The position numbers and the translations under genes were made by a program. Positions 1 to 31,556 of a stretch of DNA of 64,000 bases are shown piece by piece. The notes under the pieces are model-generated. The model did not search any database. It saw nothing but the letters and a program-made list of their open reading frames with translations, and was not told where the DNA came from. This stretch comes from Collimonas arenae (GTDB lineage Bacteria; Pseudomonadota; Gammaproteobacteria; Burkholderiales; Burkholderiaceae_D): the NCBI RefSeq assembly GCF_000786695.1, contig NZ_CP009962.1, forward strand, positions 2,046,001 through 2,110,000. Reading direction: 5' to 3'. The first letter of the stretch is position 1. Every line of letters begins with the position of its first letter.

Positions 1-3000
1 CGCCTCAGACTGCCGGAGTTTTTGCGGCATGACGCCATGGCTTTCTGTCTGCATCCGTCGCTGTTCGATGGCGCGCTGCGCACCTGCCTGGCCATCGGTT
101 CAGAGTCATTGGATGCAACGGTGCCGCTGGTGCCGTTTGCGCTGGGCGAACTGGAGATCCGGCACCCGCTCACCGAGGAATGCTATGCATACGCGACCGC
201 AGTGCCCGATGCCGAAATGCAGGCCAATTTGCAGCCCGATCTGCACAGCGGCCTGCGTAAATACAACATCGCCGTTACCGATTGCGATGGGCGTGTGCTG
301 ATCAAGCTTTGGAACTTCTCCGCTCGTCAGTTAACCAAGGCAGAGCCGCAAGCCTTGCGTACTTTGCAGTACTACGGCTATGACTGGCTGGAGACCCCCG
401 CACTGCCTGCACTAGCGTCAGCGCTCTCAGACCGCACTGTTTTGGTGATCGCAGACGATACGTCGCTGGCCGAAACATTGGCACTTCGCTTTGCATCATC
501 CGTCAATGTCGTGCTGGCGCAGTCCGGCGCTGCATTTTCCAGGCTGGGCGAGCGGCGCTATTGCTTCGATCCGGCCAATCCTCACTCCTATACGGAACTG
601 CTGACCCATCTGGCCAGTCAGGATCTGCGGCCGTCGCATATTACCCATTACTTGCAAGATGTGCAGGACTTCACTACGGCGGTCGATCATGACGACGTGC
701 AGAGCCTGCGTCGCGGGATGTTGTCGATGCGTCACCTGTTCAATGCACTTGAACAGACGATGCCCGGCCAGAGCATACGTTGCGCCTATGTATTCGAGGC
801 CGCACGCGAAGCGATCCAGCCGCAGCACGATGCGATCTCCGGCTATGCCAGATCGTTGCTGACCATTAATCATCGCTTCGAATTGTTCACGGTCCGGGCC
901 GAGCGCTCTAAAACGGCTGAACTTGCCGCCATGTTGCAGAATGAATTTGAGGCATCCGGGACGCTTGCCGGTCTTGAAATAGCTCTCTGGAACGGGCGCC
1001 GTTACCTGCGCAGCCTGGCGCCTCTCGATCCATCCGGCATGTCGCAGAATGCGCTTCCGCTCAAGTCGCGCGGCGTGTATCTGATCACCGGCGGCGCCGG
1101 CAAGCTTGGCCTGGTGCTGGCTCGTTACCTGGCTACGCACTACCAGGCAAGATTAATACTGAGCGGACGCAGCGAGCGGCTGCACGACGAAGCACTGGCG
1201 CAGATCGAGGCGCTGCGCGCCGCAGGCGCCGATGTGCATTACCACTGCTCCGATATCGCCCAAGCCGGGCAGGCCGATGCTTTGCTTGCTGTCGCCAAAC
1301 AGGTCTATGGCCGGCTCGATGGCATCCTGCATTGCGCGGGGGTGGCCAGCGATAAGCTGATAACGGAGTTGGATGAGGTTGCCTTTGCCGAATTGCTGGC
1401 GCCGAAGATCGACGGCCTGCTGGCGCTGGACCGCGCTACCCGGAGTGAGCCGCTGGATTTTTTCGTCAATTTCTCTTCGGTCTCTGCGATGCTGGGCGAC
1501 CTGGGTTCCGGCGCTTATGCCGTAGCCAATCGCTTCATGGATAGCTACGCCGTATGGCGCGACGCGCTGTGCAAGCAAGGTCAGTGCTTTGGCAAGAGTC
1601 TCTCGATCGGCTGGCCTTTGTGGGCGACCGGGGGCATGAAGATTTCGGCTGAGGATGCATCGCTATTCAGCTTCTCGGGAATGTCAGCACTTACTGAGGC
1701 CGAAGGTATCGAAGCCTTTGAACGTCTGTTGCGTGGAGATATGCAGCAGGTACTGCTAGCCGTGGGTGACGCAGCAAAAATCGGGCGTGCGCTGCGCGTG
1801 CACGTCGAACAGGCGCCAGCCAGTGTTCAGGCGACGCCGCGCGCGCTGCCGTTTAAGACGGTTTCGGCGGCGCGTACGACCAGTGACAGTAACATGACGG
1901 CCTTGCCTTCCGGCGCATCCTCCGATGGACTATCAGATCAACAGCGCCGCGCCGAGCACTATCTCAAGGAACGACTGGGGATTGTGGTGAAAGTGGCGGC
2001 TAGCGATATCGGTGGGCATACCACCTTCGAGCAGCTCGGCATGGATTCTGTGATGTTGATGGAGTTGCGCAATAGCCTGACTCAGGATTTCCCCGGCCTG
2101 CCTAAAACCGCGCTGTTTGAATACGACACGCCGGCTCGTCTGGCGCAATATCTGATGCAGCAGCACCTCGACGCCTTGCGGACCTGTCTGGGGGAATCAG
2201 CGCCGGCGGCGGCCGATAAAAAAATGGCCGATCCGGTCGTGGGCGCACTAGTCTCAACTGCCCCGGTTACTACGATCGTCACCAGGTCGACGCCTGCTTC
2301 GCTACCGGTTTCTGGCAAGCGCCGTTCCACGGCAGCTGGCGTAGCGCCTGCCGCGGACGATGCGGTCGCTATCATCGGCCTGGCGGGTCAGTTCCCGCAG
2401 GCGGCCGACCTGGGCGAATTCTGGAGCAACCTGCAACAGGCCAAAGACTGCTTGTCGCCGATTCCAGAGGATCGCTGGCAGACGACCGGCCAGCGCGATG
2501 CGCGTCATGGTTATTGCAACATGGGGGGCTTCCTGAGCGACGCGAACCGTTTCGATCCCGCATTTTTCAGGATGTCGCAGACCGAGGCGGCAAAGACCGA
2601 CCCGCAATTGAGAGTGTTGTTGCGCGCCGCATGGCATGCCATCGAGGATGCCGCCTACACCCCGGAGGCGTTATTACCGGAGCGTGTCGGCGTTTATGTC
2701 GGCGCCATGAACGAAGACTTCACCTGGATCATGTCGGAGTTGTACACCCGCACCGGAGAGTACCAGGGGCCGGGTTCGGTGGTCAGTGAACTGGCCAATC
2801 GGATTTCTTTCCTGATGAACTTCCGCGGCCCCAGCCTGACCGTGTCTACGGCATGTTCGTCTTCGCTCACGGCAGTCCACATGGCCCGGAAATCGATTCT
2901 GGGCGGCGAGTGCGATATCGCGCTGGCCGGTGGCGTCAACCTGAGCCTGCATCCCAGCAAGTATCTCATGCTGAAGGATATGAAGGTACTGTCGCCGGAT

Positions 3001-5166
3001 GGCCAGGAGCGCACCTTCGATGAGTCAGCCAACGGCCTGGTGCCGAGCGAAGGCGTGGGAATGGTGCTGCTCAAGCGCTTGAGCAGCGCATTGGCGGACG
3101 GCGACCAGATCTACGGTGTGATCCGAGGCTCCAGCATCAGCCATGCCGGCACCGGCGCCGGCCAATACCTGCCTAATCTCAAGGTGCTTGAGGAAACGGC
3201 CATGCGCAGCCTGCGCGAATCCGGCCTGCGTGCCGAGGATTTGTCTTACATCGAGAGCCACGGCACCGGTACCGAACTGGGTGATCCGATCGAACTCAAG
3301 GCGCTGGCCAATGCGCTGCGGCAGTCTACTTCGGCGGAACGGTTCTGTGCGATAGGCACCAAGGCCAATCTCGGTCACATGGAAGCTGCCTCGGGCATCT
3401 GCTCGCTGATCAAGGTGTTGTTGAGCATGAAACATGGACGTTTGTCGCCGTGCGCAAAGTTGACTTCGGTGAATTCGTCGTTCGAACACGAGTTCTCGCC
3501 ATTTCACTTTCCGCTCGAGCCGCAGCTATGGAATGTAAACCAGCGAGGAACGCGCGCGGCCGGTATCAATTCCTTCGGGATGGGGGGATCGAACGTGTTC
3601 GTGGTGCTCGAATCCCAGGATCCGGCTGCATCCAGGCAAAACCCGGCGACCGGTCAGGCCGAGCCGTCGATCATCGTACTGTCGGCAAAAAGCGAAGGCC
3701 GCTTACGGGCTTATGCAAGCGCATTGCTGGCTTTCCTGACACATAGTGATCGTGAAACATGGTCGGCTGCGGACTTTGCCGATCTGGCGTATTCGAGTCA
3801 GATCGGAAGGACAACGTTCGAGTATCGCCTGGCAATCGTCGCCACCGACCGTCTGGAATTCATCGCCAAGGCAGGCAAGTACTTGCAATCCGGTCCTGTC
3901 GCGGCGCTCGGTATCTTTGCCGACGGCGGCCGCTCGCAGGAGGAGTTGCCGGATCTTCTGGCGGGGAATGCCGGACAGGAATTCATCGATGCACTGCTGC
4001 AAGCGCGGCAGTGGAACAAATTAGCCTCGATCTGGGCGCGTGGATGCGCTATTGACTGGTCGCGCTTGCACGTCAATGCGAACCGGCGGCGGGTGTCCTT
4101 CCCGGCGTATCCATTCGAAACGTTCAGCTGCGATTTGCGCGACGCGGTCGGAGTCGCCGGGGCGCACGGGAGACGTCAGGTTACACCGGGAAGCGATACT
4201 TCCGCCTCGTCTTCAACTGAATTGGATGCGCCGCGCCAAAACGCTTTGACCGAAGACGAACCACAAGGAAGCCAAGAGTGGTTCAGTCTGGAGTCCACTC
4301 CGAATCAGGTATCGCAAGAGGCTGACGGCAGCGCCGACGAGGGCGACGAAATGGCCAGGCAGTACTGGATCGGTCATCTGCAAGACATCGCCGAAACCAG
4401 TTTCCTGCTCGCGCCGGCACTATTCGAGTATGCCGGACAGGATGCAACCGACGAACTGCCGGCGCACTCCGTCTCGAGTTCGCTAGGATGCGAGCTGACC
4501 CAATCCCTGCAACGTTGCACTCAATTGCATCGGATTGAAGTGGAGACGCTGATCGCGGCGGCCTGGGCCATCCTGATCAACCGCTACACCAAGGTGCGTT
4601 GCTCGCAATTCGGCATCTTGAAGGAATTCGCACCTGTACCGAGCGCAGTCATCGAGTCCGATGCCGGCAGCCATCAGCAGTTGCACAATTTTGTGCCGGT
4701 CCGGATTTGCACGGCCGGCCGGGAAAAAATTGCGGGCTGGTTGACAGGTTTGCAGCGCAATCTGAATCGCAAGCGTGTTTATGCCCATGTGCCGATCCAT
4801 CGGATTGAAAGCTGGATCGGCGTCGAGAACCTGTTCGATAACGCGATTGTCTTCGAGAAGAGCTACGGGCCGCAGGCCGATGCGGTCGAGGTTGCAACAG
4901 TTGCCGCAGAAAGTACAGCGCAATTGCCGGCCTGCGTCGCCATGAAGTTGACGGTAAACATCTACAGCGACGGGCTGGATCTTAATCTGACTTATCGCTC
5001 GGCAAAAGCGGAAGGCGAAAAGCTGAGCACGCTGCTCGATCATTTTCAGGTGTTGCTGGAAGGTCTTGCCGCCAATCCGGAAAAGACCCCGGCAGCCCTG
5101 ACCATGCGCACCAAGCGCGAGAGCCGGGAAACTTTCTGGAACACCCTGGATAAGGTGAATCTATGA
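1..5166 (+). CDS. Modular polyketide synthase, C-terminal part: DH-KR-ACP-KS-partial C (5' end outside window)
   Basis: The frame is open to the window edge, so the true start lies upstream. Residues are counted from a TTG at 22. In order: the end of a dehydratase domain with the HPxLxDGAL motif near residue 12; a ketoreductase near 351-550 with TGGAGKLG and an intact Ser/Tyr/Asn set (SSVSAM, GAYAVANRF); an ACP near 650-715 with the carrier serine in GMDSVML; a ketosynthase near 780-1200 with Cys945 in TACSSS, His1080 in SHGTGT and His1119 in NLGHMEA; the usual post-KS linker; and, from about residue 1443, a stretch resembling only the second half of an NRPS condensation domain, without HHxxxDG. 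No acyltransferase domain follows the KS, which fits a trans-AT PKS. The stop overlaps the next start (ATGA). The final KS has no ACP in cis, so it may extend onto the free-standing ACP encoded downstream. Domain calls are firm; product and substrate are unknown. Confidence 0.93.
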   Translation, partial: RLRLPEFLRHDAMAFCLHPSLFDGALRTCLAIGSESLDATVPLVPFALGELEIRHPLTEECYAYATAVPDAEMQANLQPDLHSGLRKYNIAVTDCDGRVLIKLWNFSARQLTKAEPQALRTLQYYGYDWLETPALPALASALSDRTVLVIADDTSLAETLALRFASSVNVVLAQSGAAFSRLGERRYCFDPANPHSYTELLTHLASQDLRPSHITHYLQDVQDFTTAVDHDDVQSLRRGMLSMRHLFNALEQTMPGQSIRCAYVFEAAREAIQPQHDAISGYARSLLTINHRFELFTVRAERSKTAELAAMLQNEFEASGTLAGLEIALWNGRRYLRSLAPLDPSGMSQNALPLKSRGVYLITGGAGKLGLVLARYLATHYQARLILSGRSERLHDEALAQIEALRAAGADVHYHCSDIAQAGQADALLAVAKQVYGRLDGILHCAGVASDKLITELDEVAFAELLAPKIDGLLALDRATRSEPLDFFVNFSSVSAMLGDLGSGAYAVANRFMDSYAVWRDALCKQGQCFGKSLSIGWPLWATGGMKISAEDASLFSFSGMSALTEAEGIEAFERLLRGDMQQVLLAVGDAAKIGRALRVHVEQAPASVQATPRALPFKTVSAARTTSDSNMTALPSGASSDGLSDQQRRAEHYLKERLGIVVKVAASDIGGHTTFEQLGMDSVMLMELRNSLTQDFPGLPKTALFEYDTPARLAQYLMQQHLDALRTCLGESAPAAADKKMADPVVGALVSTAPVTTIVTRSTPASLPVSGKRRSTAAGVAPAADDAVAIIGLAGQFPQAADLGEFWSNLQQAKDCLSPIPEDRWQTTGQRDARHGYCNMGGFLSDANRFDPAFFRMSQTEAAKTDPQLRVLLRAAWHAIEDAAYTPEALLPERVGVYVGAMNEDFTWIMSELYTRTGEYQGPGSVVSELANRISFLMNFRGPSLTVSTACSSSLTAVHMARKSILGGECDIALAGGVNLSLHPSKYLMLKDMKVLSPDGQERTFDESANGLVPSEGVGMVLLKRLSSALADGDQIYGVIRGSSISHAGTGAGQYLPNLKVLEETAMRSLRESGLRAEDLSYIESHGTGTELGDPIELKALANALRQSTSAERFCAIGTKANLGHMEAASGICSLIKVLLSMKHGRLSPCAKLTSVNSSFEHEFSPFHFPLEPQLWNVNQRGTRAAGINSFGMGGSNVFVVLESQDPAASRQNPATGQAEPSIIVLSAKSEGRLRAYASALLAFLTHSDRETWSAADFADLAYSSQIGRTTFEYRLAIVATDRLEFIAKAGKYLQSGPVAALGIFADGGRSQEELPDLLAGNAGQEFIDALLQARQWNKLASIWARGCAIDWSRLHVNANRRRVSFPAYPFETFSCDLRDAVGVAGAHGRRQVTPGSDTSASSSTELDAPRQNALTEDEPQGSQEWFSLESTPNQVSQEADGSADEGDEMARQYWIGHLQDIAETSFLLAPALFEYAGQDATDELPAHSVSSSLGCELTQSLQRCTQLHRIEVETLIAAAWAILINRYTKVRCSQFGILKEFAPVPSAVIESDAGSHQQLHNFVPVRICTAGREKIAGWLTGLQRNLNRKRVYAHVPIHRIESWIGVENLFDNAIVFEKSYGPQADAVEVATVAAESTAQLPACVAMKLTVNIYSDGLDLNLTYRSAKAEGEKLSTLLDHFQVLLEGLAANPEKTPAALTMRTKRESRETFWNTLDKVNL

Positions 5167-6191
5167 ATAGGAATGGAATGCAAGTGTTCATGACGGGAGC
5201 CAACGGTTTCGTCGGTCTCAATATTGTCTCCGCGCTGATGGCGGCCGGACATCGCGTCACTGCGTTTGTCCGGCCTGGATCAAACGTTTCTTATCTGGAG
5301 TCATTCGGTGTCGATGGTGTTGGCAGCGTCAATATCGTGCGCGGCGAGTTGAGCGATCTCAGCGCCGTGGCGAAAGCGATGAGCGGAGCGCAAGGAGTGA
5401 TCCACACCGCCGGCAACACCAGTTGCAACAAGCGCGACTGGCCGCTGCTGCAAGAGGTCAATGTGCAAGGCACGCGCAACGTGGTCCAGGCCGCGATCGC
5501 AAACCGCATCCCGCGGATTGTGTATACCAGCACGACTTCAACCATCGGCGCCTTCAAGGATCAAGCGCATGTTGCGAATGAAGACGTGGTGCTGAAGGGT
5601 TTTCGAGCGCGCAGCCCTTACGGGATCAGCAAGCAGAGAGCCGAACGGGCTGTGCTCGATGCGCAGAAGCATGGTGTGCAATGCGTCATCCTCAATCCTG
5701 CAGAAGTGCTGGGCGCTTTTGATTACTCGATGCAATGGGGGCGGATGGTACTGGCTGTACATCACAACCAGGTGCCCTTCATGCCGCCCGGCGGCGGCAC
5801 TTTCTGCAGCGCCGCTGAAGTCGGACGGGCCCATGTGAGCGCATTGACGCAGGGACGTTCCGGCGAACGCTACATTCTCGGCGGCGATAACGTCAGCTAC
5901 GAGCATTTCCTGGCGGTCATCGCCAAGGTTTTGGGGCAGGTTTTCGACAAGCCGAACGTCAACTACGGCTGGCTGTATGTCAAATCGGTTCTGCAAGAGA
6001 AGTTTCCGTCGTTATTGCCCGGCAAGCCCATCGTCGAACCGTACCGGATGCGGGTTTTCAGCGGCACGTATTACTTTGACAGCGCCAAGGCCGAGCGTGA
6101 GTTGTCTTATCGGCCGGTTTCACTCGAACAGATGCTGCATGACTGTGTGCAGTGGTACCAACGTCATGGCTTCATCAGTAGCCGTGATTAA
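5163..6191 (+). CDS. Extended SDR, NAD-dependent epimerase/dehydratase family; candidate CerR-like ketone reductase
   Basis: A 342-residue cytosolic oxidoreductase with the N-terminal Rossmann motif TGANGFVG at residues 11-18 and the catalytic Tyr153-x3-Lys157 in SPYGISK; a Ser/Thr-rich stretch near residue 121 supplies the third catalytic residue. Its length fits extended SDRs. It starts inside the PKS stop (ATGA), so translation is probably coupled. The next genes encode an alpha-oxoamine synthase and an ACP. That trio matches the gene content of bacterial sphingolipid loci, where an SDR of this class (CerR) reduces the keto group left by serine palmitoyltransferase. By analogy it may reduce the alpha-amino ketone here. 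It could instead be a sugar-nucleotide-type epimerase or a polyketide ketoreductase. Family is certain; substrate is inference. Confidence 0.85.
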   Translation: MNRNGMQVFMTGANGFVGLNIVSALMAAGHRVTAFVRPGSNVSYLESFGVDGVGSVNIVRGELSDLSAVAKAMSGAQGVIHTAGNTSCNKRDWPLLQEVNVQGTRNVVQAAIANRIPRIVYTSTTSTIGAFKDQAHVANEDVVLKGFRARSPYGISKQRAERAVLDAQKHGVQCVILNPAEVLGAFDYSMQWGRMVLAVHHNQVPFMPPGGGTFCSAAEVGRAHVSALTQGRSGERYILGGDNVSYEHFLAVIAKVLGQVFDKPNVNYGWLYVKSVLQEKFPSLLPGKPIVEPYRMRVFSGTYYFDSAKAERELSYRPVSLEQMLHDCVQWYQRHGFISSRD

Positions 6192-6229
6192 TTGAAAATT
6201 ACCAACATCATTGAACCAGGGGAGACACT

Positions 6230-7501
6230 ATGGATTCCAGAGCGCTAATCGAACTCGAACGGCAGCCATTCAAACAACGGCTGGCCCAGCAGTATTCGGT
6301 TTATTTAAATGAAGTGGGGCAGGGCATGATGTCCGGCCGGGAGGGCTTCGGCCCGGTCGATCGCCGGATGAAATACAAGGACTTGCACAGCGAAGTTTTT
6401 CACGACGTACTTATCTTCGGTTCCAATAGCTATCTCGGTTTGTCGAACGATCCCTATGTGAAGCGCAAAGTGACGGAGGCGGTCGAGCAATACGGCATCG
6501 GCTCGGGCGGCTCACCAGCCTTCTCCGGCTACACCAAACAACACAAGGATCTCGAAAAGAGACTGGCCAGGCTGGCTGATCACGAGGATGCCGTGCTGCT
6601 TCCGGGCGGCTACATGGCAAACCTGTGCTGGGTCAACGGCCTGATGAATCGTAACGATGTCATCGTCTACGACAAGAACAGCCATGCCAGCGTCATCAAT
6701 GCGATCAAAATGACGAGTGTGCCGTTTTATACATTCGATCCCGAGAAACTCGATGAATTCGAGACGCTGCTGAAGCGGATCAAACAGCGCTCGAAGGCGG
6801 ACGTGCAGATTTTCTCGACGGTTGAAGGGGTGCGTTCGATCGACGGATCGATCATCGAACTGAAACGCTATATCGAGATCTGCAAAGCCCATGATGTTAT
6901 CACCATCCTGGATGACGCTCACGGGCTGGGCACCGTCGGCAAGTACGGTCGCGGCACCCTGGAGCACCTGGATCTGCTGGGCCAGGTCGACCTGCGCATG
7001 TCCACCTGCAGCAAGGCGATCGGCGCGCAAGGCGCCTTCGTCTCCGGCAGCAAGGAACTGATCTTCTTGCTGCGGAATTTCTCCTATCCTTATTTGTTCA
7101 CCTCGGCAATGGCGCAGCCGACCATCGCGGCAATTTCGGCTGCGCTGGATATCTTGGAAAGCGAGCCGGAACGCATCGAGATGCTGCATAAGAACGTGCG
7201 CTACATGCAGGATCAACTGGAAGCGGCGGGACTTCGCATCATCCGCGGCGAGTCAGGAATTATTCCGGTGTTCTTCGAGGAGGATGGCGTGGTGCGCAAG
7301 ATCAATCGCGCCTTGTACCAGCGCGGACTGTTCGCCAACATCATGGAATACCCGATGGTGCCGCCTGGACTGGAGCGGTTGCGACTGTCGGTGATGGCGA
7401 CCCACACACGCGAGGAAATCGACACAGCCGTATCGCTGATTGTGGAAACCGCATGTGAATTTGGCGCTTTGCAAAATGAAACTACTCTGGAGAATGCATG
7501 A
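6230..7501 (+). CDS. PLP-dependent alpha-oxoamine synthase (AONS / serine palmitoyltransferase-like)
   Basis: A 423-residue fold-type I PLP enzyme. Enzymes of this family condense an acyl thioester with an amino acid and release CO2, giving an alpha-amino ketone. Visible landmarks are the PLP-stacking His152 in KNSHAS, the PLP-contacting Asp228 and His231 in DDAHGLGTVG, and the Schiff-base Lys262 in STCSKAIG. The glycine-rich GSGGSPAFSGYT stretch near residue 92 is typical of the family. A GGGGAG ribosome site precedes the ATG at 6230. The gene sits between an SDR and an ACP, and its stop overlaps the ACP start. Biotin synthesis (BioF) and 2-amino-3-ketobutyrate ligase (Kbl) are less likely because no biotin or threonine genes are nearby. 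The best reading is a serine palmitoyltransferase-like enzyme that uses an ACP-bound polyketide acyl chain. Amino acid choice cannot be read from the sequence. Confidence 0.88.
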   Translation: MDSRALIELERQPFKQRLAQQYSVYLNEVGQGMMSGREGFGPVDRRMKYKDLHSEVFHDVLIFGSNSYLGLSNDPYVKRKVTEAVEQYGIGSGGSPAFSGYTKQHKDLEKRLARLADHEDAVLLPGGYMANLCWVNGLMNRNDVIVYDKNSHASVINAIKMTSVPFYTFDPEKLDEFETLLKRIKQRSKADVQIFSTVEGVRSIDGSIIELKRYIEICKAHDVITILDDAHGLGTVGKYGRGTLEHLDLLGQVDLRMSTCSKAIGAQGAFVSGSKELIFLLRNFSYPYLFTSAMAQPTIAAISAALDILESEPERIEMLHKNVRYMQDQLEAAGLRIIRGESGIIPVFFEEDGVVRKINRALYQRGLFANIMEYPMVPPGLERLRLSVMATHTREEIDTAVSLIVETACEFGALQNETTLENA

Positions 7502-7770
7502 TGAGCAAGAAAGAAGTGATGTTGGAAACGGTGCTGGATGTCATCAACAACATAAAAAAAACCGGATTTACACGAGACTCGGTAGAGCAGGACTTCTATC
7601 TTGGCGGGGATCTAGGCGTCGATTCGAAGGAGATGCTTGAAATCTGGTACGAGCTCGAGCAGCGTTTGAATATCCGTGTGCAGGACGCGGAAAAACGCGA
7701 TCTGTACACCCTGGATGACGTCATCAATCTTCTGGAAAGCAAACTCGTCCCGGTAGCGGCGACCTTGTGA
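7498..7770 (+). CDS. Free-standing acyl carrier protein
   Basis: A 90-residue acidic carrier protein with the 4'-phosphopantetheine serine at position 43 in LGVDSKEM. The start overlaps the stop of the oxoamine synthase gene (ATGATGA; a start at 7501 is equally possible). It most likely carries the acyl chain used by the oxoamine synthase, or receives a chain from the last KS of the PKS, which has no ACP of its own. A dedicated ACP next to serine palmitoyltransferase is known from bacterial sphingolipid loci. The Sfp-type enzyme at the end of the operon is the obvious candidate to add its prosthetic group. Confidence 0.9.
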   Translation: MMSKKEVMLETVLDVINNIKKTGFTRDSVEQDFYLGGDLGVDSKEMLEIWYELEQRLNIRVQDAEKRDLYTLDDVINLLESKLVPVAATL

Positions 7771-7941: not shown

Positions 7942-9849
7942 ATGACATCAGTGTGGGTATTTCCAGGGCAGGGATCTCAGCATAAGGGCATGGGCGCGGA
8001 GTTATTTGCGCGCTTTCCCCAGCTCGTCCGCGAGGCGGATGAGGTATTGGGTTATTCGATTCGCGAGTTGTGTCTGGACGATCCGAAGAATGTGCTCAAG
8101 CAGACCGAATACACCCAGCCGGCGTTGTTCGTCACGTCGGCACTGTCGTTTCTGGCCAGGCGCGAGCAAGGCGGTGCGCCGCCCGATGTCTACGCAGGAC
8201 ACAGCCTGGGTGAATTTAACGCCATATTCGCCGCCGGCGGATTCGATTTCAAGACTGGGGTCGCCCTGGTGGCAGAGCGGGGCCGATTAATGTCGCAGGC
8301 GACACCCGGCGCCATGGCGGCCGTCATCGGCCTGGATCAGGACAACGTGCTTGAACTGCTGGCATCCTCGCCTTTCGACAAGATCGACATCGCGAATATC
8401 AATTCCTCAGAGCAGATAGTAATTTCGGGCGAGGAAGAGCAGATCGCGCGCTGCGACGCACTGTTTGTGGCGGCAGGCGGCCGTTATGTACGCTTGAATG
8501 TCAGTGCGGCTTTCCATTCCAGATTCATGCGCGATGTCGAGCAGCAGTTCGCTGCTTACCTCGCACGCATGCCCTTGCATACGCTGAAGGCGGAAGTCAT
8601 TGCCAATTGCACGGCGCATCCCTATCCGATGAGCGGTTATCAGGAATTGCTGGCGCGTCAGATCACGCATCCGGTCAAGTGGTACGAGTCGGTCTCACGG
8701 CTGCTGTCGCGGGGTGCGGTGGCACTGGAAGAAGTAGGGCCGGGCGATGTACTCACCAAGCTCTTTTTCAAAATCAAACAGAAGCCGATGCCGATGCCGC
8801 TGCCGTCACGGCTGGGCGACAGCGCAGACGCCTCTGCCGCGGTGCAGGCGCGCAACAGTCAGGCAGTGACCGGCCGCAAGTCTGTTGATGGACCGCTACA
8901 GCCTTCGCGGCGTACCGTGTTCATGTACTCGGGACAGGGCTCCCAGTATTACCTGATGGGGAAGGAGCTGTACCAGAACAGCGCGCCGTTCCGCGAAGCG
9001 ATGGATGCTTGCGATGCGCTGCATCGTGCGCACACCGGCCGCAGCATGCTGGCGGAGCTGTACAACGACACCAAGCGGCACGAGGAGATGACGGATGTGC
9101 TGCTGGCGCATCCGGCACTGTTCAGCCTGGGTTACAGCCTCACCCAGGTGCTGCTGCACGCGGGTATCGAGCCGGATGGGGTATTGGGTTACAGCCTAGG
9201 CGAGTACGTCGCGGCGACGGTTGCGGGAGTGGTTTCTCTGGAGGATGCGATGGCTATGGTTATTTGCCAGGCGCGCTTGCTCAGCGAACAAGCCTCTGGC
9301 GGCGGCATGCTGTCCGTACTGACGCCGGTGGAGCATTTTGAACGCCATGCTGATGTGTACCGGGGCGGCACGCTGGCGAGCGTCAACTTCAGCGGTAACT
9401 TCGTGGTCAGCGGAGACCAGCGGACACTGCTTGCGATCAAGGAGCGGCTGGACGCGCAGGAGATTGTATCGCTGCTTCTGTCGGTCGATCACGGCTTTCA
9501 TTCGGCGGCGGTGGAGCCGATAGAGGCTGAGTTCCGCCGTTTCTTGCAAAGCCTCCCACGGCAGACGCCGCGCCTGCCGATCTACTCGGCCATGCATGGC
9601 CGCGCGATCGACGCATTTGACGATCAGTACTTTTGGGATGTGCTGCGGCAGCGTGTCGATTTCTACAAGCTGATGGGCTCGTTGAGCGGACAGGAAGGCG
9701 TCCGCTTCGTTGACCTTGGGCCGACCGGAACCTTATCCAGCTTCATCAAGTACGGCTTTGGCAATCGCGTTGATCACGCCGTATCGATCAATCAGTTCGG
9801 GAAAAACATCGAAACGGTATCCAAATTGTTGACCAGGCTTTCCGCTTAG
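7942..9849 (+). CDS. Tandem acyltransferase protein (AT-AT), probable trans-acting malonyl-AT plus second AT or acyl hydrolase
   Basis: A 635-residue protein of two complete FabD-like domains. The first (about residues 1-285) has Ser88 in GHSLGEF and the AFHSRFM catalytic-His motif typical of malonyl-specific ATs. The second (about 305-635) has Ser418 in GYSLGEY and a matching GFHSAAV motif. In trans-AT systems such pairs usually combine a malonyl-CoA:ACP transferase that loads the PKS carriers with a second copy that is either another transferase or a proofreading acyl hydrolase (the PedC type). The second domain's GYSxG instead of GHSxG fits the divergent role, but sequence alone does not prove it. 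The PKS end in this window has no AT domain, so this protein is the likely source of extender units. Confidence 0.9.
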   Translation: MTSVWVFPGQGSQHKGMGAELFARFPQLVREADEVLGYSIRELCLDDPKNVLKQTEYTQPALFVTSALSFLARREQGGAPPDVYAGHSLGEFNAIFAAGGFDFKTGVALVAERGRLMSQATPGAMAAVIGLDQDNVLELLASSPFDKIDIANINSSEQIVISGEEEQIARCDALFVAAGGRYVRLNVSAAFHSRFMRDVEQQFAAYLARMPLHTLKAEVIANCTAHPYPMSGYQELLARQITHPVKWYESVSRLLSRGAVALEEVGPGDVLTKLFFKIKQKPMPMPLPSRLGDSADASAAVQARNSQAVTGRKSVDGPLQPSRRTVFMYSGQGSQYYLMGKELYQNSAPFREAMDACDALHRAHTGRSMLAELYNDTKRHEEMTDVLLAHPALFSLGYSLTQVLLHAGIEPDGVLGYSLGEYVAATVAGVVSLEDAMAMVICQARLLSEQASGGGMLSVLTPVEHFERHADVYRGGTLASVNFSGNFVVSGDQRTLLAIKERLDAQEIVSLLLSVDHGFHSAAVEPIEAEFRRFLQSLPRQTPRLPIYSAMHGRAIDAFDDQYFWDVLRQRVDFYKLMGSLSGQEGVRFVDLGPTGTLSSFIKYGFGNRVDHAVSINQFGKNIETVSKLLTRLSA

Positions 9850-9926: not shown

Positions 9927-12900
9927 ATGTTATCAGGACAAGAATCGACGGTCGGTCTGAGCATATCGCACAGTGGTTATGGGATGGAGCTGTCAAGCTC
10001 GCTGAACGACGGTATGGCCAACGCAAAATACGAAGGCCAGCGCCGGATGCTGGAATGCATGCCTTTCCCGCGCCATGCCGATCTGCCGATCTGCGTGGCG
10101 GCATGGCATGGCGTTCTGCATTGGCTGAGATATAACGACGAACCCGTAATGACCTGTCTTTTGGGCGCGCAGCCCGAGAAATGCTGGCCACTGGTCACCG
10201 CGATCAGCGAGCACACCTCCCTGGGCGAACTGCTGGCTGATGTCAAACAGCAATGGGTGGACAACGAGAGCGACTGGTTTGATTTGCATGATCCGAATCA
10301 TCCCGGCCTGGCCGATCAGTTGCGCTGTCATGCTATCTGCCTGCATGGTGTCTCGGAAGAGGCGAGCGAGACTGAGTTCATGATCGTGCGCGATTGCGAG
10401 GCGTGGTTTGTCGATTGCGACGCCAGCCGCTTCAGCGCATCCTATCAGCGCTTCGTGATGGCAATGTGGGCGCATTTGGTCACGCGGATGCTGGAAAGTC
10501 CGGCATCGCGCTTGTCGGCTGAGAACCGTTTCGAAGGTCTCGATGCTTATGCGCCTTCGCAGACCGATATGAGCGGGCCGGCGAAGTCGATCGCCGGCAA
10601 TCTGCCCGGACGTTTTGCTGCATCGGTTGCCGCCCATCCACACAAGATCGCTGTCGTCGACGCCGATGGCAGTTTGAGCTTCGCCGAACTGGACGCATTG
10701 TCCGAACGCTGGGCGCAGGCCTTGCACACGGCGGGCGTTATTCGTGGGGACTACGTCGGTGTGGCGTTCGGCCGCAGTCATCGCATGGTTGCGGCGCAAC
10801 TGGCGACGCTGAAAGTGGGAGCGGTGTTTGTCCCTCTGGATGCCACGCAGCCGGCGACCCGCCTGCAGGCAATGGCCGACGACGCTGAGATGCGCGTCGC
10901 CTTGACCGAAACATCCTGGGTATCGTCGATGCGCGAAGCGTTGCCGGCCGTGCTATGCCTGGACGTCGCATCTTCTGCCGCCGCTGTTGTCACCGATACT
11001 GATTTGCATCGTCCACAGCTGCTGGATGTGCTGAGCACGGACGATCTGGCCTACGTGATCTTTACATCGGGATCGACCGGTCGACCGAAGGGTGTCAAGG
11101 TCAGTCATGGCAATCTGCTCAATTTCGTCACTCATCTGAAAGAACTGATGAGCGCGGATGAAATCGTGTCTCAGTTTGCCCCCGTTACATTTGATGCCTC
11201 AGTCGGTGAAATCCATTCAGCCCTGCTGAACGGCGCCACGCTGGTGATTCTGCCGGCGGAACTGATCGACAGTCCCGATCGGCTGCAGGCCTACATGAGC
11301 GAGCAGCGGGTGACATTTGCGGCTTTTCCTCCGCAATACGCAAAACATCTTTGGCCCGAGAAATTGCCGCAACTGAAGACCCTGCTGACCGCGGGATCGG
11401 CGCCCGATCACGAGTTGGTACGGCGCTGGCAACCGCATCTGCAGTACGTCAATGCATACGGCCCGACAGAAACGACGATTCTGTCGACGCTTTGGCAGGC
11501 CAGCCATCAGATTGAACAGCAAGAGCGCTTGACCATTGGCTTTCCGATTATCAATACCGAGGTCCGCGTAGTCAATCGTTTCAACCAGCCATTACCGCGT
11601 GGAGCCATCGGCGAACTGCTGATCGGCGGCGCGGGTGTGACGCACGGCTATCTCAAGCGCGAAGAAATGACGCGGGATAAATTCATTACGGCGGATCGTA
11701 TGCGCTGGTACCGCAGCGGCGACCTTTCCTGCTTCGACGATCAAAACCGCCTGTTCTTCGCCGGCCGCGTCGACAATCAGATCAAGCTGCGGGGGCATCG
11801 GCTGGAGCCGGGCGAAGTGGAGACAGCGTTGCTGACCTTGCCGGGGATCGAGCATGCGGCTGTCATCGTCACCGAGGTCCAGGGAGCCAAGCAGCTGGTG
11901 GTGTTTTGCGTAGGCAAGCCGCAGCCGGAAGAAACGATCCGGACCGGCCTGGGCCAGGTTCTGCCGGCCTGGGCGATGCCTAACCGGATTCTCTGGCTGT
12001 CCGAGCTGCCGCTCACGGTGAACGGCAAGACCGACTATCGCGCGCTGCAAGCGCGGCTGCTGCAGAACGATGCGCCGTCGCGGTCGGCGGATCACGCCGA
12101 CCAGTTGGAAGCGCAGATCGCCGACATCTGGCGCGGTGTCCTGCAGCAACCGGATATTTCGCGCGAGGATAATTTCATCCACCTGGGTGGCGATTCGCTG
12201 ACTGCGCTGGTGGTGATGTCTGCGTTGAAGCGGCTGGGTTATCAGATCACTTCGTCGCAACTGCTGTCGCATCCTCGCCTGGCCGATTTCGCCGAACTGC
12301 TGCGGCATTCCGAGCGCCGGTTGCAGCGCGACTATGCCAGCCGCCAGGGAATTGCGCCGCTCAGTCCGATCCAGGGCTGGTTCTTTCAGTTGCAACTGGC
12401 GCGGCCAGGGGCATTCTGCCAGACCTTGTCCTTCGAGACCGAGGAAGACCTTGACGCCGAGCGTTTGCATCGGGCCTTTTCCGGTCTGGCGGTATACCAC
12501 GATCAATTGCGCGCCCATTTCGTCCGTACCGGAACGGTTGCGCAGGAAGCTTTTCCCTGGCGTCAGGAGATCGCCAGCGCAGCGCTGGCATTGCCGGCGA
12601 TCCCATCGATCGAGGTTGCAGAAGCAGAACTGGAACAGGCGAGCGAGCAATGGCGCACCACGCTTGCGGCTCAATTGCACATCGAACAGGCGCCTCTGTT
12701 CCGCATCGTTCTGCTGAAAACAGCGAGTCGCTCGCGCGTGCTGTGGGTGTTGCATCACTTGCTGGTCGATACCATCAGCCACGGCGTGCTGCTGGACGAT
12801 CTGCGCCATCTTTACGTTAGCGATGGCAACGACCTGGAAGCGATATTGCCAGGCAAAAGCATCAGCTACCTGGACTGGTCGGAAAAATTTTCCGCGCACC

Positions 12901-15900
12901 TCGCCGAAAAACAGGGTGCGTTGCTGGACGACTGGCTTCCGGTGCTGCGCGCGGTCGAAAGCGCGCAGGCGCTGCCGCTGGCGAAGAGGGAGGCGGGGCG
13001 CAGCTCGATTACGATCGGACAGCACCACCTGTCGCGCCAGGATACCGCGCGTTTGACCGGGCAGGCGGCAGCCTGCTACCGCCAGAGCGCAGAAGAGTTG
13101 CTGCTTGCGGCGACCTATCTGGCGCTGGCGCGCAGCTGCAAGCTGGAGCGTATCTGTCTGGATGTCGAATGGCATGGCCGCGACGAGGCATTTGCCGGTC
13201 CTCAGGGCCTCGATCGCACGGTGGGCTGGTTCACCAGCGTGCATCCCTTGTGTCTGACGGTGCCGGCGCAGCAGGATCTGGGGGACTGGCTGGTCCAACT
13301 GAAGGAATGCCGTGCCGCGATTCCGCAACGCGGGCGCGATTTCTACGCGCTGCGCTACCTGAGCCGCGATCCGGCGGTGCGTGAACAATTCGAGCGTTAC
13401 CGCTCACCGCAGGTGCTGTTCAACTTCTCGGGCGTGGTGCAGCGCAGCCACCAGAGCTGGCGTACGGTGCCGATGGCCGCCATCGAAATGGGCGAGGGCA
13501 ACGCCAGTCCCTATGCGCTGTCGGTGGAAAGCGAGATTCGCGATGGCGAATTGATTGTCAGTTTGTATTTTGATCCGGCGGCATGGCCGGACGGCTTGGC
13601 CGACAAGCTGGGAGAGACCCTGATCCAGTGCTTGCGGGAAGTGATCGATCATTGCGTGGTTGACGCCAACCGCCGCTGGACGCCTTCCGATTTTCCGGTT
13701 GCGGCGCTGACGCAGGCGCAGGCCGATGCGTTGCCGGCAACGGTAAAGGCAGTTTATCCATTGACAGACATGCAACGCACCATGCATCGGCACAAGGACA
13801 CCTATCAGGTGCACATGTGCTACCGCATGCCGCGCAGATTGGACTGGCCGGCCTGGCAGTTGGCGGTAGCCGACTGGATTGGCCGCCATGATTGCCTGCG
13901 CACGGTCATCAAGGAATGGGACAGCGAACGGGGTGGCGGCGAAATCCATCAGGTCGTGCTGACGTCGGTAGCTGCGGAGACGCGCATGCACCAGGCGCCG
14001 CCAGGCCAGGGCGCGGCATTCGCGCAGCAGCTGATCGAACAGGCGCGCGGTAAGCCGGTGCAGCTCAGCCAGGCGCCGCTGTTCGATCTGCAGGCCGTGG
14101 ACGAAGCCGGCGACAGTTTCCTGACCGTGCTGTCCATCCATCACATCATCCATGACGGGTGGTCGATCGAGCTGCTGCTGAACGACCTCCTGCGCAGCTA
14201 TCGCCATTTCCTCGGGGAAGACGAGTCCAGGCCGAGTGCGCCGCTGGCCGGCATGGCGGATATCGTGGAGCAGCAGCGCCGCCTTTTGGCCAGCGAGACA
14301 TGGCGCGCCTACTGGTTGGCATTGCCGTGGGAGCGCAGCGCCAGCCAGCTGCCTTGCGCGGCTCCGCTCAACGGCCACGCTGCGGCGCGGCCGGACACAC
14401 GGATTTATCTCGGCAGCATCGAGCGCGACCTGGCGGCGGATGTGCGCGCCCGCGCCGGTGTGCTCGGCGTCACGGCCAACAGCTTGTGGCTGACAGCTTA
14501 CGCCTGCCTGCTGCGTTATCTGGGCGGCCAGGCGCAGGTGCGCTGCGGCGTCATCCAGAGTGGCCGGATGGAAGAGATTCCCGGCTTCGACACTATCACC
14601 GGATGTTGCGTCAACACCTTGCCTCTGGTGCTGAACATCGATTCCACAAGCACGCCGGCCGGCCTGCTGGCCAGCGTCAACGCGCAGCTGGACGCCATGC
14701 GCGCCTGTGCGGCCTTTCCTTTGTCGCATATCCATGAAACCGTAAAACCCCGGCTCGACGACGAGCTGTTCAACAGCTTGTTCAATATCGAGAGCCAGCG
14801 CTACGGCGAGCAGCATGCGCAGTTGCGTCCTGTTCTGGAGTCTGGTTACGAGTCGACCAACTATCGCTTCATTTTTGGCCTGATCGAACAGGATTGCGGC
14901 ATCGACGAAACTGGGCCAGCGGCAGTAGCGCCGCGTTATGGCGTCAGAATAGGCTACGACGCCAGCCTGTACGATGAGGCGACTGTCGCCATGTGGCTGG
15001 AGATCTATGCGCATTGCGTGCGACAGCTGATCGACCAAACGGATGCCGCCTGGAGCGAGTTGCGGCTGCTGCCGCCGGCATTGCGGCGGCAATCGCTGTC
15101 TGCATGGAACCAGACGGATCATGCCTACAGCGCCGATCGTTGCATGCACGAGCTGTTTGCGGAGCAAGCGGCAAGAACCCCGTATGCCGAGGCCCTGGTG
15201 TGCGAGGAAGAACGCTTGAGCTACCGAGAACTCGACCAGCGCAGCAACCGCCTGGCGCAACATCTGTGTAGCTTGGGGGTCGGGCCCGATGTGGTGGTGG
15301 GGCTGTGCGTCGAACGCTCCACGCAGATGGTGGTAGGAATGTTGGGGATTCTGAAGGCCGGCGGCGCCTATGTGCCGCTGGATCCTGAACTGCCGCCGCA
15401 GCGGCTGGCCGCCATGGTGACCGATATCGGCCTCAACCTGGTGCTGACCCAGGCGCCGCTGGCGGCCGGACCGTTGTCGCAAGTCGACGCGGCGGTGCGG
15501 CTGTTGCGGTTGGACGCCGAAGGGGCTCAGATGGCGCAGTATCCGGCCGTGGCACCCGCGACTGGCGTCACGCCGGGACACCTGATTTACGTGATCTTCA
15601 CTTCAGGCTCCACCGGCAAGCCAAAGGCGGCGATGAACCAGCATGGCGCACTGGTCAATTACATCCAGTGCCTGCAGGCAAGTCACGGCCTGGATGCGAG
15701 TGACCGGGTGCTGCAGAAAACGCCGTTCTCGTTCGATGTCTCCGCGCGTGAAATCTTCTGGCCGTTACTGGCGGGGGCGACGCTGGTCATGGCCCGGCCG
15801 GGAGGCCATCGCGACCCGGCCTATCTGAGTCAGGCTGTCCGCGGGCACGGCATCACTACGTTGAGTTTTGTGCCTTCGATGCTGCAGGTATTTGCCGACC

Positions 15901-18900
15901 ACGGCGAGCTGCACGCATGCACCAGTCTGCGCCGCATGTTCGTCAGCGGCGAGGCGCTGCCGGGAGCACTGGCGGCGCGCTTCCTGTCCTTGTCGAAGGC
16001 GCGGCTGTACAACTTGTACGGTCCTACCGAAGCTGCGGTCGATGTCAGCGGTCATGAGGTCAAGTCCGCCGACGGCGCGATCGTGCCTATCGGCCGGCCG
16101 CTCTGGAACACGCGCTTGTACGTGCTTGACGAGCACCTGGAGCCGGTTCCGACCGGTGTCGGCGGCGAACTGTATGTCGGTGGCGTCGCGGTCGGCCGAG
16201 GTTATCTGGGCCGTGACGATTTGACGGCCGAACGCTTCATCGACAGCCCCTTCGAACCGGGAGAACGGCTGTACCGCACGGGCGATCTGGCGCGTTGGCG
16301 CGCCGACGGCGAGGTAGAGTACCTGGGCCGTCTCGACCATCAAGTCAAGATTCGCGGCTTCCGCATAGAGCTCGGCGAAATCGAGCATGCTTTGTCTGCG
16401 CACGAGAATGTCAGGCAGGCGCTGGTGATCGCCAGGGCGGATGGCGGCCATCAGCAACTGGTCGCCTATCTCGTCGCCAAAGACCTGGCGCTGGAGGACG
16501 ATCGCGCCGCATCGCAGCTGATCCAGTCGTGCAGGGAAAAACTGCAGGCCGCATTGCCGGAATACATGGTGCCCGCAGCATTCGTGCTGCTGGAAGCGCT
16601 GCCTTGCAACGCGAACGGCAAGGCCGATCGTGCCGGTTTGCCAGAACCGGGGCCGTCCGCCTACGTACACACTGCCTATGCCGAGCCGGGCAACGATTGC
16701 GAGCGGAAACTGCGGGCAATCTGGAGCGAAGTACTGCAGGCGGCGTCCTTTGGCGTGACCGACAATTTCTTTGCCATCGGCGGCGATTCCATCCTCGCCA
16801 TCCAGGTGGTGGCGCGCGCGGCCAGGCAGGGCATTGTCCTTACGCCGCGCCTGATCATCGAGGAAAAGACTATCCGCAATCTGGCTACCAGGCTGGCGCA
16901 GAAAGAAGATGTCGCCGCCGTGGCCGAACCGGCGCATGAGCGCGAAGCAATCAAGGGCGAGCAGCGCTTGTTACCCATCCAGATCGGATTCCTGCAGGGC
17001 GATGGCGTCGATGTGGACCATTATTGCCAATACGCTGCGGTCAGCTTGCCGCGCCAGGCAAACCTGGAATTGTTGAAAACGGCGCTGGCGGCGATCGTCG
17101 CGCGCCACGATGTGCTGCGCTTGAAATTCCGGCAGACGGCAGCCGGCTGGATTGCACAGTATCGTCCGGAGTTGCTGTCCGACGTCGCGGGGGTATTCGA
17201 TGAGATGATCGTCGAAGCCGATGCGCAAGATACTGCCGGCAATTCAGCCGACCCACGGTCCCGCATCAGAGCGGAAGTAGAGCGCGCACAGGCCGGGCTT
17301 GATATCAGGCAAGGCAAGCTTTGCCGCTGGGTCTGGCTGCGCGACGGAGATCAGTCGCAGCTGATCTGGATCATGCACCATCTCATCGTCGATGTGGTTT
17401 CGTGGCAAGTATTGCAAGACGATCTGAACATGGCGCTGGAGCATGCCTGCCGCGGCGAGCCAGTCAGGCTGGCTGCCGCATCGAGCAGTTACCAGGAATG
17501 GGCGGCGCGTCTGCATGACTACGCTTATAGTGCGCCGCTGGAGCGAGAGAAAGCCTATTGGCTGAAGCAGTTGGAAGCGCCTGCGGCCGTCCTGGCGTAC
17601 GACCGCGACGCGGCGCAGCAAGAGCCCGGCGGTCTTGATTTTCCGGTTCAGGAAACGACGGAGCAGGTAGTCGTCGGTTTGAGCCGCGAGGAAACAGCCT
17701 TGTTGCTAGGCCGGGCCGGCACTTTCTTCGAGGTTCGTACGCATCAGTTGCTGATTGCGGCATTGAGCCGAACCTTGGGCGACTGGCTCGATGCCGATGA
17801 CATCCGCATCGATCTCGAAAGCCATGGCCGCGACGATATGGCAGGAGAAGCTGCATTCGAGGGGCTCGACCTCAGCCAGACCGTAGGCTGGTTCACTGCG
17901 CTGTATCCCATCCATGTGGTCGGCGTCCGGGCCGGTTTGGCAGAGCACGTCCGCGCAACCGGGCGGCAGCTGGAAGCGGTGCCGCGCAACGGCATCGGTT
18001 ACGGCTTACTGGCCAGCCTTGCGCATGACGAGGATCTTATGGCTGCCGGCGCAACACTCGGCGGCCATACGTCCGAAGTGTTGTTCAATTATCTGGGCCA
18101 GGTCGATCCGGATGTGCGGGGCGGCAGTTTCGTCAGCCCACGCAGAGCCAGAACCCATGCGCTGAATATCAACGGCATGATCAGCGCGGGCGCACTGACC
18201 TTGCATATCGATTACAGCCGCCGGCAGTTCAGGCGCGAGACGATGGAGGCTGTGGCCGCGCGCCTGGTCGGGGTGTTGCAGGACATGCTGACTTGTGACA
18301 GTGGCGGACCGGGGCCGGATTCTGGCTTGGGGCGCGAATCCTCGCAGTTTCCGCTGGCCGCGATCGGGCCGGCCGATCTGAGTGCATTGCAGGCGAAATA
18401 CCCCGCACTGCAGGATCTGTACCCATGCACAGGAATGCAGCAGGGTTTGCTGCTGCTCGCCGACCGCGCTTCGAAAGACGGGCTTTATCTCACCCAGCTG
18501 CGGATGCAACTGGAGGCAGTCGATCCGGCGCGCCTGCGCCAAAGCTGGCAGGAATTGGTGAAGCGGAACCCCGTACTGCGGACCGCTTTTGTCGACATTG
18601 GGCAGGATGAACTGCTGCAAATGGTGATGGCCGAAGTCGACTTGCCGTGGCGCGAGCTAGACCTCCGCACAGCGGTTTCGACAGATTCCCCGAACCGTGC
18701 CGGCGATCTGCAGCAAGTGCTGGAACAGCTGCTTGCCGACGAGCGCAGCAAATCGTTTGATCTCGGTGCCGCGCCGTTGATGCGCTTGTTGCTGGTGCGT
18801 ACCGGCGAGCGCCAGCATTGCCTGGCCTGGACTCACCACCATGCTCTCATCGATGGTTGGTCGATGGGGTTGTTGGTAAAGCAATTGTTTCAGATTTACT

Positions 18901-31503: not shown

Positions 31504-31556
31504 CGTGGCGGATACGTCCATGCATTGCAGCAGGCCTGGCTGCTTGAAAGGTGGCG

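Follow-up and report, generated by a model that had tools for sequence, protein, structure and literature searches.

An α-oxoamine synthase cassette between a polyketide synthase and a nonribosomal peptide synthetase in Collimonas arenae: a possible source of peptides with a sphingoid-like C-terminal tail

Introduction

Bacteria can build sphingoid bases on polyketide chains, as with SgaAB, which forms sphinganine from a polyketide synthase (PKS) chain and serine (PMC12134224). In the rhodobacterial sphingolipid locus the acyl donor to the α-oxoamine synthase (AOS) is an acyl carrier protein (ACP) (PMC9386255), and in glidonin biosynthesis free putrescine is the acceptor when a terminal condensation (C) domain releases the peptide (PMC10587159). 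Here we analyse a locus of Collimonas arenae in which genes for a short-chain dehydrogenase/reductase (SDR), an AOS and an ACP lie between a trans-acyltransferase (trans-AT)-type PKS and a nonribosomal peptide synthetase (NRPS) with five adenylation (A) domains. The DNA studied, referred to below as the window, is a stretch of 64,000 nucleotides (assembly GCF_000786695.1, contig NZ_CP009962.1; C1:2046001-2110000 in our numbering of a genome with two contigs and 5.64 Mb). We give a probability of about one half to the proposal that this operon makes a peptide with a sphingoid-like tail at its C-terminus.

A sequence-only reading of the window had noted the three genes between the end of the PKS and a five-module NRPS, and we confirm both the coordinates and the five A domains. 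Its further remark, that it knew of no characterised bacterial product combining such parts, has to be divided: polyketide-derived sphingolipids are known from SgaAB, which takes the novelty from the sphingoid half (PMC12134224), while we found no report of their being joined to a nonribosomal peptide. The latter is a weak negative: it rests on the titles and abstracts listed by searches of the open PMC literature, in which subscription journals are mostly absent, and among these entries no bacterial product joining an AOS-made unit to an NRPS peptide was found. Clusters of the present kind may already have been listed; candidates are a 'transAT-PKS, NRPS' lipopeptide cluster in R. badensis (PMC9749400) and uncharacterised trans-AT PKS-NRPS clusters in Lysobacter (PMC11451712).

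Results

The cassette and its conservation

The SDR, AOS and ACP genes, here called the cassette, follow the PKS gene directly, with overlaps of four bases between the end of the PKS open reading frame (ORF; 5166) and the start of the SDR, and again between AOS and ACP. The main features, as read from the ORFs and domain matches, are these:

1..5166, + strand: trans-AT-type PKS gene, 3' part; whole protein 5418 aa, start 11,090 bases before the window (L017:8910)
2359..3477, + strand: ketosynthase (KS), fourth of the PKS; Cys, His and His present, no ACP after it in the same protein
4360..5139, + strand: partial C domain at the PKS C-terminus; C-terminal part only, without HHxxxD
5163..6191, + strand: extended SDR, 342 aa, proposed amino-ketone ketoreductase; Pfam Epimerase PF01370, 6.6e-32
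6230..7501, + strand: AOS, 423 aa, with H152, D228, A230, H231, S261, K262 and R385; Pfam Aminotran_1_2 PF00155, 8e-41
7498..7770, + strand: stand-alone ACP, 90 aa; NCBIfam ACP models below cut-off, GVDS motif
7942..9849, + strand: tandem AT (FabD-like AT and a second AT), proposed to act in trans; Pfam Acyl_transf_1, two stretches
9927..29477, + strand: NRPS, 6516 aa, partial C-A-T-E-C-A-T-E-C-A-T-C-A-T-C-A-T-terminal C (T, thiolation; E, epimerisation); no thioesterase (TE) match
9987..10571, + strand: partial C domain at the NRPS N-terminus; C-terminal part only, by profile comparison, weak as a single sequence
12345..13709, + strand: E domain of the first NRPS module; by protein order and TIGR01720 at 63.4 bits (cut-off 74.2)
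28137..29396, + strand: terminal C-type domain of the NRPS, DHLIWDG; proposed release onto an amine

A pattern scan of 84,980 species genomes for close relatives of the AOS yielded 12 loci, from Collimonas, Lysobacter, Xanthomonas, Cellvibrio, Gynuella, Rouxiella, Erwinia and Pantoea, and the order PKS, SDR, AOS, ACP, AT was found in 12/12 of them (the AT is cut by a contig end in L009, the PKS in L009 and L010). Because it is repeated in every one of these loci, the order is more than chance. Among the proteins compared the AOS is the most conserved, with 73-97% identity to that of the window (97% in C. humicola), followed by the ACP (53-93%), the SDR (52-92%) and the AT (41-89%). The NRPS, in contrast, varies from three to six A domains, with five in the window and four in C. 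humicola, while the order of the PKS and the AOS stay constant. These comparisons support the view that PKS-NRPS operons of this type regularly include an intact AOS together with an ACP and an SDR of its own.

Close orthologues of the AOS occur in two of 15 Collimonas genomes, in one of 369 genomes sampled evenly across the class (the Collimonas genome itself) and in one of 250 genomes of the order (three if relatives at 60% identity are counted). In the family to which the Xanthomonas relative belongs, 6/297 genomes have one, and five of these loci were already known here. The AOS pair from Collimonas branches beside that of Lysobacter yr284 (88/88), and this placement suggests horizontal transfer.

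The oxoamine synthase and its partners

The window AOS stayed below the cut-off of every NCBIfam model. The best was BioF (TIGR00858, 297.9 of 426.45 bits); the serine palmitoyltransferase (SPT) models NF047600, NF047599 and NF047603 reached 280.8 of 640, 247.4 of 500 and 185.2 of 670 bits, and the Kbl models TIGR01822 and NF005394 reached 246.1 of 493 and 286.5 of 460 bits. In a tree of 47 rows, which also gave the Lysobacter placement above, all 13 cassette AOS fall into a single clade (100/95), which the two relatives at 60% identity join to make a long-stemmed clade (100/100) beside Persicobacter (97/94). Most rows of the family are named by their tree position, five of them (L138, L140, L141, L142 and L143) being also above an NCBIfam cut-off. 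Three ACP-fused rows (L135-L137), which we take to be PigH-like, are a separate clade (100/100). On a tree of 26 rows, the approximately unbiased (AU) test rejected a joint clade of cassette and Kbl (p 0.013) and was borderline for joint clades with BioF (p 0.056) and with the PigH-like rows (p 0.051); a clade with four SPT rows was not rejected (p 0.083), and one with the SPT 3a2b alone was (0.022). As far as these trees go, the cassette AOS is a separate subfamily whose position among SPT, BioF and Kbl they do not fix. The enzyme is not firmly grouped with BioF or Kbl.

The Collimonas genome itself contains no SPT above the NF047599 cut-off (none of five matches). The genome of Pantoea sp. 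A4 holds, besides its cassette AOS, an SPT-type AOS (L091) that falls beside the SPT of E. coli BL21 (100/99). Another PKS-linked setting of an AOS is found on a Burkholderia glumae plasmid, where a BioF-like enzyme (L139) lies near bioB, a carbamoyltransferase-type gene and a type I PKS.

Residues H152, D228, A230, H231, K262 and R385 of the AOS correspond to H137, D209, A211, H212, K243 and R366 of the Sphingobacterium SPT 3a2b, and the numbering of the catalytic residues given by the sequence-only reading (His152, Asp228, His231, Lys262) proved exact on this alignment. The set H152, D228, H231, K262 and R385, which includes the stacking histidine, the lysine that binds PLP and the substrate-binding arginine of SPT, is common to every AOS-family row aligned. 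S261, the residue before the catalytic lysine, corresponds to Ser242 of 3a2b, for which docking modelled a contact with the hydroxyl of serine (PMC3870968), and is serine in 13/13 cassette AOS and in both 60% relatives. The same position is glycine in 11/11 BioF and 9/9 proteobacterial Kbl rows, in the HemA row and in the B. glumae row; it is alanine in L004, and alanine and glycine in the pair L093/L094. Serine also stands there in the four SPT rows, the three PigH-like rows, one Bacillus Kbl-type row and Persicobacter. At the position of Arg81 of 3a2b, the cassette AOS (13/13) and both 60% relatives have proline (Pro96), which among the aligned rows is confined to these and Persicobacter; arginine is found in 4/4 SPT rows and in the PigH-like, Kbl and HemA rows, and alanine, glycine or histidine in the BioF rows.

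The two partners of the AOS were less close to those of sphingolipid loci than first supposed. The SDR, which the sequence-only reading had likened to CerR, is not a CerR orthologue: its nearest NCBIfam model is HpnA (231.8 of 367.65 bits, below cut-off), its best match in the PDB is 3wj7, a putative oxidoreductase, and it shares 28% identity over only 162 residues with the SDR of the sphingolipid locus of E. coli BL21. The 90-aa ACP has no Pfam match; nine NCBIfam models of ACP type find it, none reaching its cut-off (lowest E 5.1e-10), and it carries a GVDS motif of phosphopantetheine type. It is not visibly the ACP of a sphingolipid locus either, an alignment with AcpR of the BL21 locus, too short to be decisive, giving 23% identity over 64 residues (pair E 0.002). 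A test for complete orthology between the trio and the sphingolipid locus was negative: neither SDR nor ACP is a recognisable orthologue, so that the trio would at best resemble a sphingolipid trio in its working and not necessarily in its descent. The idea that a polyketide chain is condensed with an amino acid and reduced to a sphingoid-like unit thus keeps its footing in an intact AOS, ACP and SDR fixed in the operon type (12/12) and in an AOS not firmly BioF or Kbl; orthology of the SDR with CerR is not supported, and that of the ACP with AcpR is not visible.

The junction between PKS and NRPS

The PKS reads KS-DH-KR-ACP-KS-DH-ACP-ACP-KS-DH-KR-ACP-KS-partial C (DH, dehydratase; KR, ketoreductase), and a domain scan of its 5418 residues gave no match to an AT or an enoylreductase. 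All four KSs keep Cys-His-His, the third with MCSSS. Since its KS modules have no embedded AT and a free-standing tandem AT is encoded beside it, the PKS is of trans-AT type. In the part inside the window Pfam matched PS-DH, KR, ACP and KS, together with a condensation domain that covers positions 191-453 of the 456 of the profile only. The second module (residues 2540-2800) holds two nearly identical tandem ACPs and, by eye, a third ACP-like stretch lacking the serine, with no KR match.

In a conventional hybrid, a C domain would transfer the chain from the PKS to the first amino acid; here partial C domains lie on both sides of the cassette. Taken together as a profile, the PKS tails (11 rows) match the later part of a C domain only (99.2%, 229 columns, C positions 188-431), and so do the N-termini of the NRPSs (10 of 11 rows used; 99.4%, 213 columns, C positions 188-439). 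As single sequences, 11/11 PKS tails match at 24 to 76 bits, two Cellvibrio tails covering positions 187-263 only, whereas five NRPS stubs match at 27 to 153 bits and six, that of the window included, at 1 to 6 bits. A joint profile of the six weak stubs still gives 91.5% over 149 columns (C positions 248-436), against 0.1, 0.3 and 0.6% for control profiles from SDR, AOS and KR family pieces of the same length. Each of the 11 NRPSs has 222-291 residues before its first A domain, too few for a full C domain, and HHxxxD is found there in none of the 11, window included.

Because the C domains are partial on both sides, direct hand-over from PKS to NRPS looks disabled at the level of sequence, and because neither contains HHxxxD, no conventional N-acylation of the peptide is visible. 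A split C domain with complementing halves was considered and dropped, both pieces being the same part of the fold. The operon could still make a conventional lipopeptide, in which the polyketide acyl group is placed on the peptide N-terminus by the partial C domains jointly or by a C domain elsewhere, and in which AOS and SDR serve another unit. PKS and NRPS do stand in one operon and in the usual order, and the R. badensis cluster mentioned above, possibly a different one, was classed by antiSMASH as a lipopeptide, nearest to tolaasin (PMC9749400). Neither piece, however, has the HHxxxD part, and two copies of one fold part would not complement each other; we consider N-terminal acylation improbable.

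The NRPS and its terminal domain

The first module of the NRPS is A-T-E in 6/11 and A-T-C in 5/11. The two E domains of the window were assigned by order and by TIGR01720, which we take to be an E-domain marker; they score 63.4 and 67.2 bits, below the cut-off of 74.2, and the model is unmatched in the C domain that follows. The A-domain codes A1 to A5 are DAGALAAIL, DVRSFSLVD, DAGALAGIL, DIWEIVHDD and DIWEIVHDG. Those of A4 and A5 resemble DIWELTADD, found in relatives and presumably a diaminobutyrate code, and that of A2 resembles what we assume to be serine codes; both serve as leads and not as tests.

A C-type domain is terminal in 11/11 NRPSs, a count that includes the window and leaves aside Gynuella and L009, with DH(L/F)xxD in eight and HHIACDA in the three enterobacterial ones. 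The motif of the window, DHLIWDG, has aspartate in place of the first histidine and keeps the second histidine and the aspartate. A profile of the eight aligns with C domains over 356 columns (97.9%), and a search with the window domain found a match in seven of 11 relatives, missing the three enterobacterial NRPSs and Gynuella. The window NRPS thus ends in a complete C domain that has the catalytic histidine and is followed by no TE match; the tails of the Erwinia and Pantoea NRPSs, as read, also show no TE after the terminal C domain. Two relatives have an ABC ATPase fused to the C-terminal side of this domain.

A terminal C domain might also cyclise the peptide or accept an unrelated small amine such as a diamine, the AOS product being joined elsewhere, or else the SDR might reduce a β-keto group bound to an ACP. 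Terminal C domains are known to accept free putrescine (PMC10587159), and a last KS with no KR after it would leave just such a β-keto group for an SDR acting in trans. No annotated gene of the operon looks like diamine biosynthesis, however, and the operon already supplies an amine through its AOS. We rate this group of explanations as the least probable of those considered, below N-terminal acylation.

Neighbouring genes in the window and in relatives

As read, the operon ends with three further genes, the last of them with its stop at 32396:

29474..30412, + strand: ABC transporter ATPase
30418..31503, + strand: ABC-2 type permease
31551..32396, + strand: 4'-phosphopantetheinyl transferase (PPTase), last operon gene as read

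In Cellvibrio mixtus, genes for an MMPL-type transporter and a LolA-like protein, gene types that we take to be used in lipid transport, lie between the tandem AT and the NRPS (L121:2642-6188); the other Cellvibrio locus has an AT-NRPS gap of similar size. The C. mixtus genes speak for a different explanation, in which the AOS branch yields a free sphingoid-like lipid, secreted or placed in the envelope, and the NRPS a separate peptide. A PKS and an AOS suffice for free sphinganines in the case of SgaAB (PMC12134224). Against two products stand the one uninterrupted operon with its overlapping genes, the terminal C-type domain that needs a nucleophile in 11/11 NRPSs, and a varying NRPS beside a constant PKS order and AOS, as would be expected of one molecule with a variable head. 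We regard two products as unlikely, while ranking them ahead of the other alternatives.

Other neighbourhoods differ further. After the NRPS of Rouxiella come cytochrome P450 and glycosyltransferase genes (L119:17066-19684), so that oxidation and glycosylation of the product are possible there; in Pantoea, too, the NRPS is followed by ORFs whose starts are similar. Near the 60% AOS of the genomes G566 and G597 (L146-L151) lie a pair of NRPS genes, one of them A-T-E, and genes for an ABC transporter and a PPTase. G566 adds an AMP-binding protein and, at the edge, a KS-like match (92 bits with a custom KS model, in a frame that gave no Pfam match). A metagenome-assembled genome of Gynuella (L113-L114) lacks the usual downstream NRPS and has on its cassette contig opposite-strand NRPS genes, A-T-E and A-C-A-T-C, which resemble those of G566 and G597.

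Two described products were considered for the cluster and rejected. Carenaemin, from C. arenae Cal35, is assigned to a hybrid cluster of PUFA-synthase type, another system (PMC13291983). The NRPS of the 'new lipopeptide' of Song et al. 2015, with 16.9 kb and five amino acids (PMC4690342), fits by its size another locus of the same genome (G000:C1:3592402-3609927, a 5681-aa frame with five C-family matches, which may include E domains), and the antifungal phenotype linked to it is no evidence for a function of the cluster studied here.

Discussion

From the gene content, the residues, the conserved order, the partial C domains and the terminal C-type domain we infer every chemical step that follows and the order of joining, as well as the amino acid used by the AOS and the sphingoid unit itself. 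The trans-AT PKS would make an unsaturated chain, which the last KS would pass to, or extend onto, the stand-alone ACP. The AOS would join the acyl group on the ACP to an amino acid, in all likelihood serine, in a condensation with loss of CO2 that gives a free α-amino ketone, and the SDR would reduce this to an amino alcohol. Separately, the NRPS would assemble a peptide from its own first amino acid (A-T-E), leaving the N-terminus free. The terminal C domain would let the amino alcohol attack the last thioester through its amine, so that the peptide is released onto the sphingoid amine, and the ABC genes would then export the product. We propose two converging arms because there is no visible entry for a lipid at the N-terminus, because the last domain of the peptide arm requires a nucleophile, and because the AOS could supply the amine.

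Several observations weigh against a sphingoid C-terminal tail. The AOS is not placed with SPT, which is a separate clade in the 26-row tree, and if the long Persicobacter row is removed the cassette clade adjoins BioF, at 40/27 support. Since serine at the S261 position is shared by the Bacillus Kbl-type, Persicobacter and PigH-like rows, it is no proof of a serine substrate. The AOS loci of G566 and G597 contain NRPS genes and no match to an SDR, a stand-alone ACP or an AT beside the AOS, and this type of AOS is therefore not always tied to the cassette. By itself the N-terminal stub of the window NRPS scores 5.3 bits, and its terminal domain is also weak singly: against a Pfam cut-off of 30.6 bits it reaches 34.5 when searched as a piece and 27.1 in the genome search, and neither NCBIfam nor the sequences of the PDB, searched up to E 1, gave a match. 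In the three enterobacterial NRPSs the terminal C domain belongs to another type (HH), the Rouxiella NRPS has a TE (PF00975) behind its terminal C domain, and in Lysobacter bin 5 about 450 further residues follow this domain. Structure predictions were of low confidence both for the AOS (13 rows, mean predicted local distance difference test score, pLDDT, 53.8) and for the terminal domain (single sequence, mean pLDDT 42.4). Three to four extensions by the PKS alone would give a short chain, and no product is known for the cluster.

Taking the relatives into account, we think it possible, at a little short of even odds, that the cassette marks a class of peptides spread by horizontal gene transfer among plant- and soil-associated Proteobacteria. 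Its members would bear a PKS-made sphingoid cap at the C-terminus, the ancestral C domain between PKS and NRPS having been disarmed on both sides of the SDR-AOS-ACP genes and the two arms meeting at the terminal C domain, with a constant lipid and a varying peptide. If this is true, sphingoid bases from a PKS and nonribosomal peptides are joined convergently, the lipid acting as the nucleophile that ends the synthesis and not as the acyl group that starts it. It would provide a mechanism for C-terminal lipidation and point to a family of amphiphilic compounds made by bacteria of soil and plants, and it would be a natural case of a chain-transfer domain that has been dismantled and bypassed.

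Of the systems that share parts with this proposal, the rhodobacterial sphingolipid locus (AasR-AcpR-SDR-SPT; L138 in E. coli BL21) likewise encodes SDR, ACP and AOS together; unlike the cassette it depends on a fatty acyl-AMP ligase and not on a PKS, its SPT is in a separate clade, and its SDR and ACP are not recognisably orthologous. The PigH-like enzymes resemble the cassette AOS in that, to judge from the fused ACP part, they act on carrier-bound chains in secondary metabolism, and differ in having the carrier part fused to the AOS (as read from length and N-terminus) and in forming their own clade. The termination module of the glidonins and the VibH-type amide synthases correspond to the release that we propose, with a C domain at the end of the NRPS and a free amine as acceptor; the amine of the glidonins, however, is free putrescine and not a lipid from the same operon, and their module also has A*-T-TE (PMC10587159). 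PfSgaAB(C) of Pseudomonas fluorescens MYb115, compared by its description, has in common with the cassette a PKS acyl chain, a dedicated AOS, an amino acid and an SDR proposed for the ketone (PMC12134224). In the description available it differs in its single iterative PKS, in the absence of any NRPS or stand-alone ACP described, and in an SDR that is a KDSR homologue, and its product is free sphinganine or the phosphoglycerol lipid derived from it, whereas in Collimonas the sphingoid unit would become the tail of a peptide.

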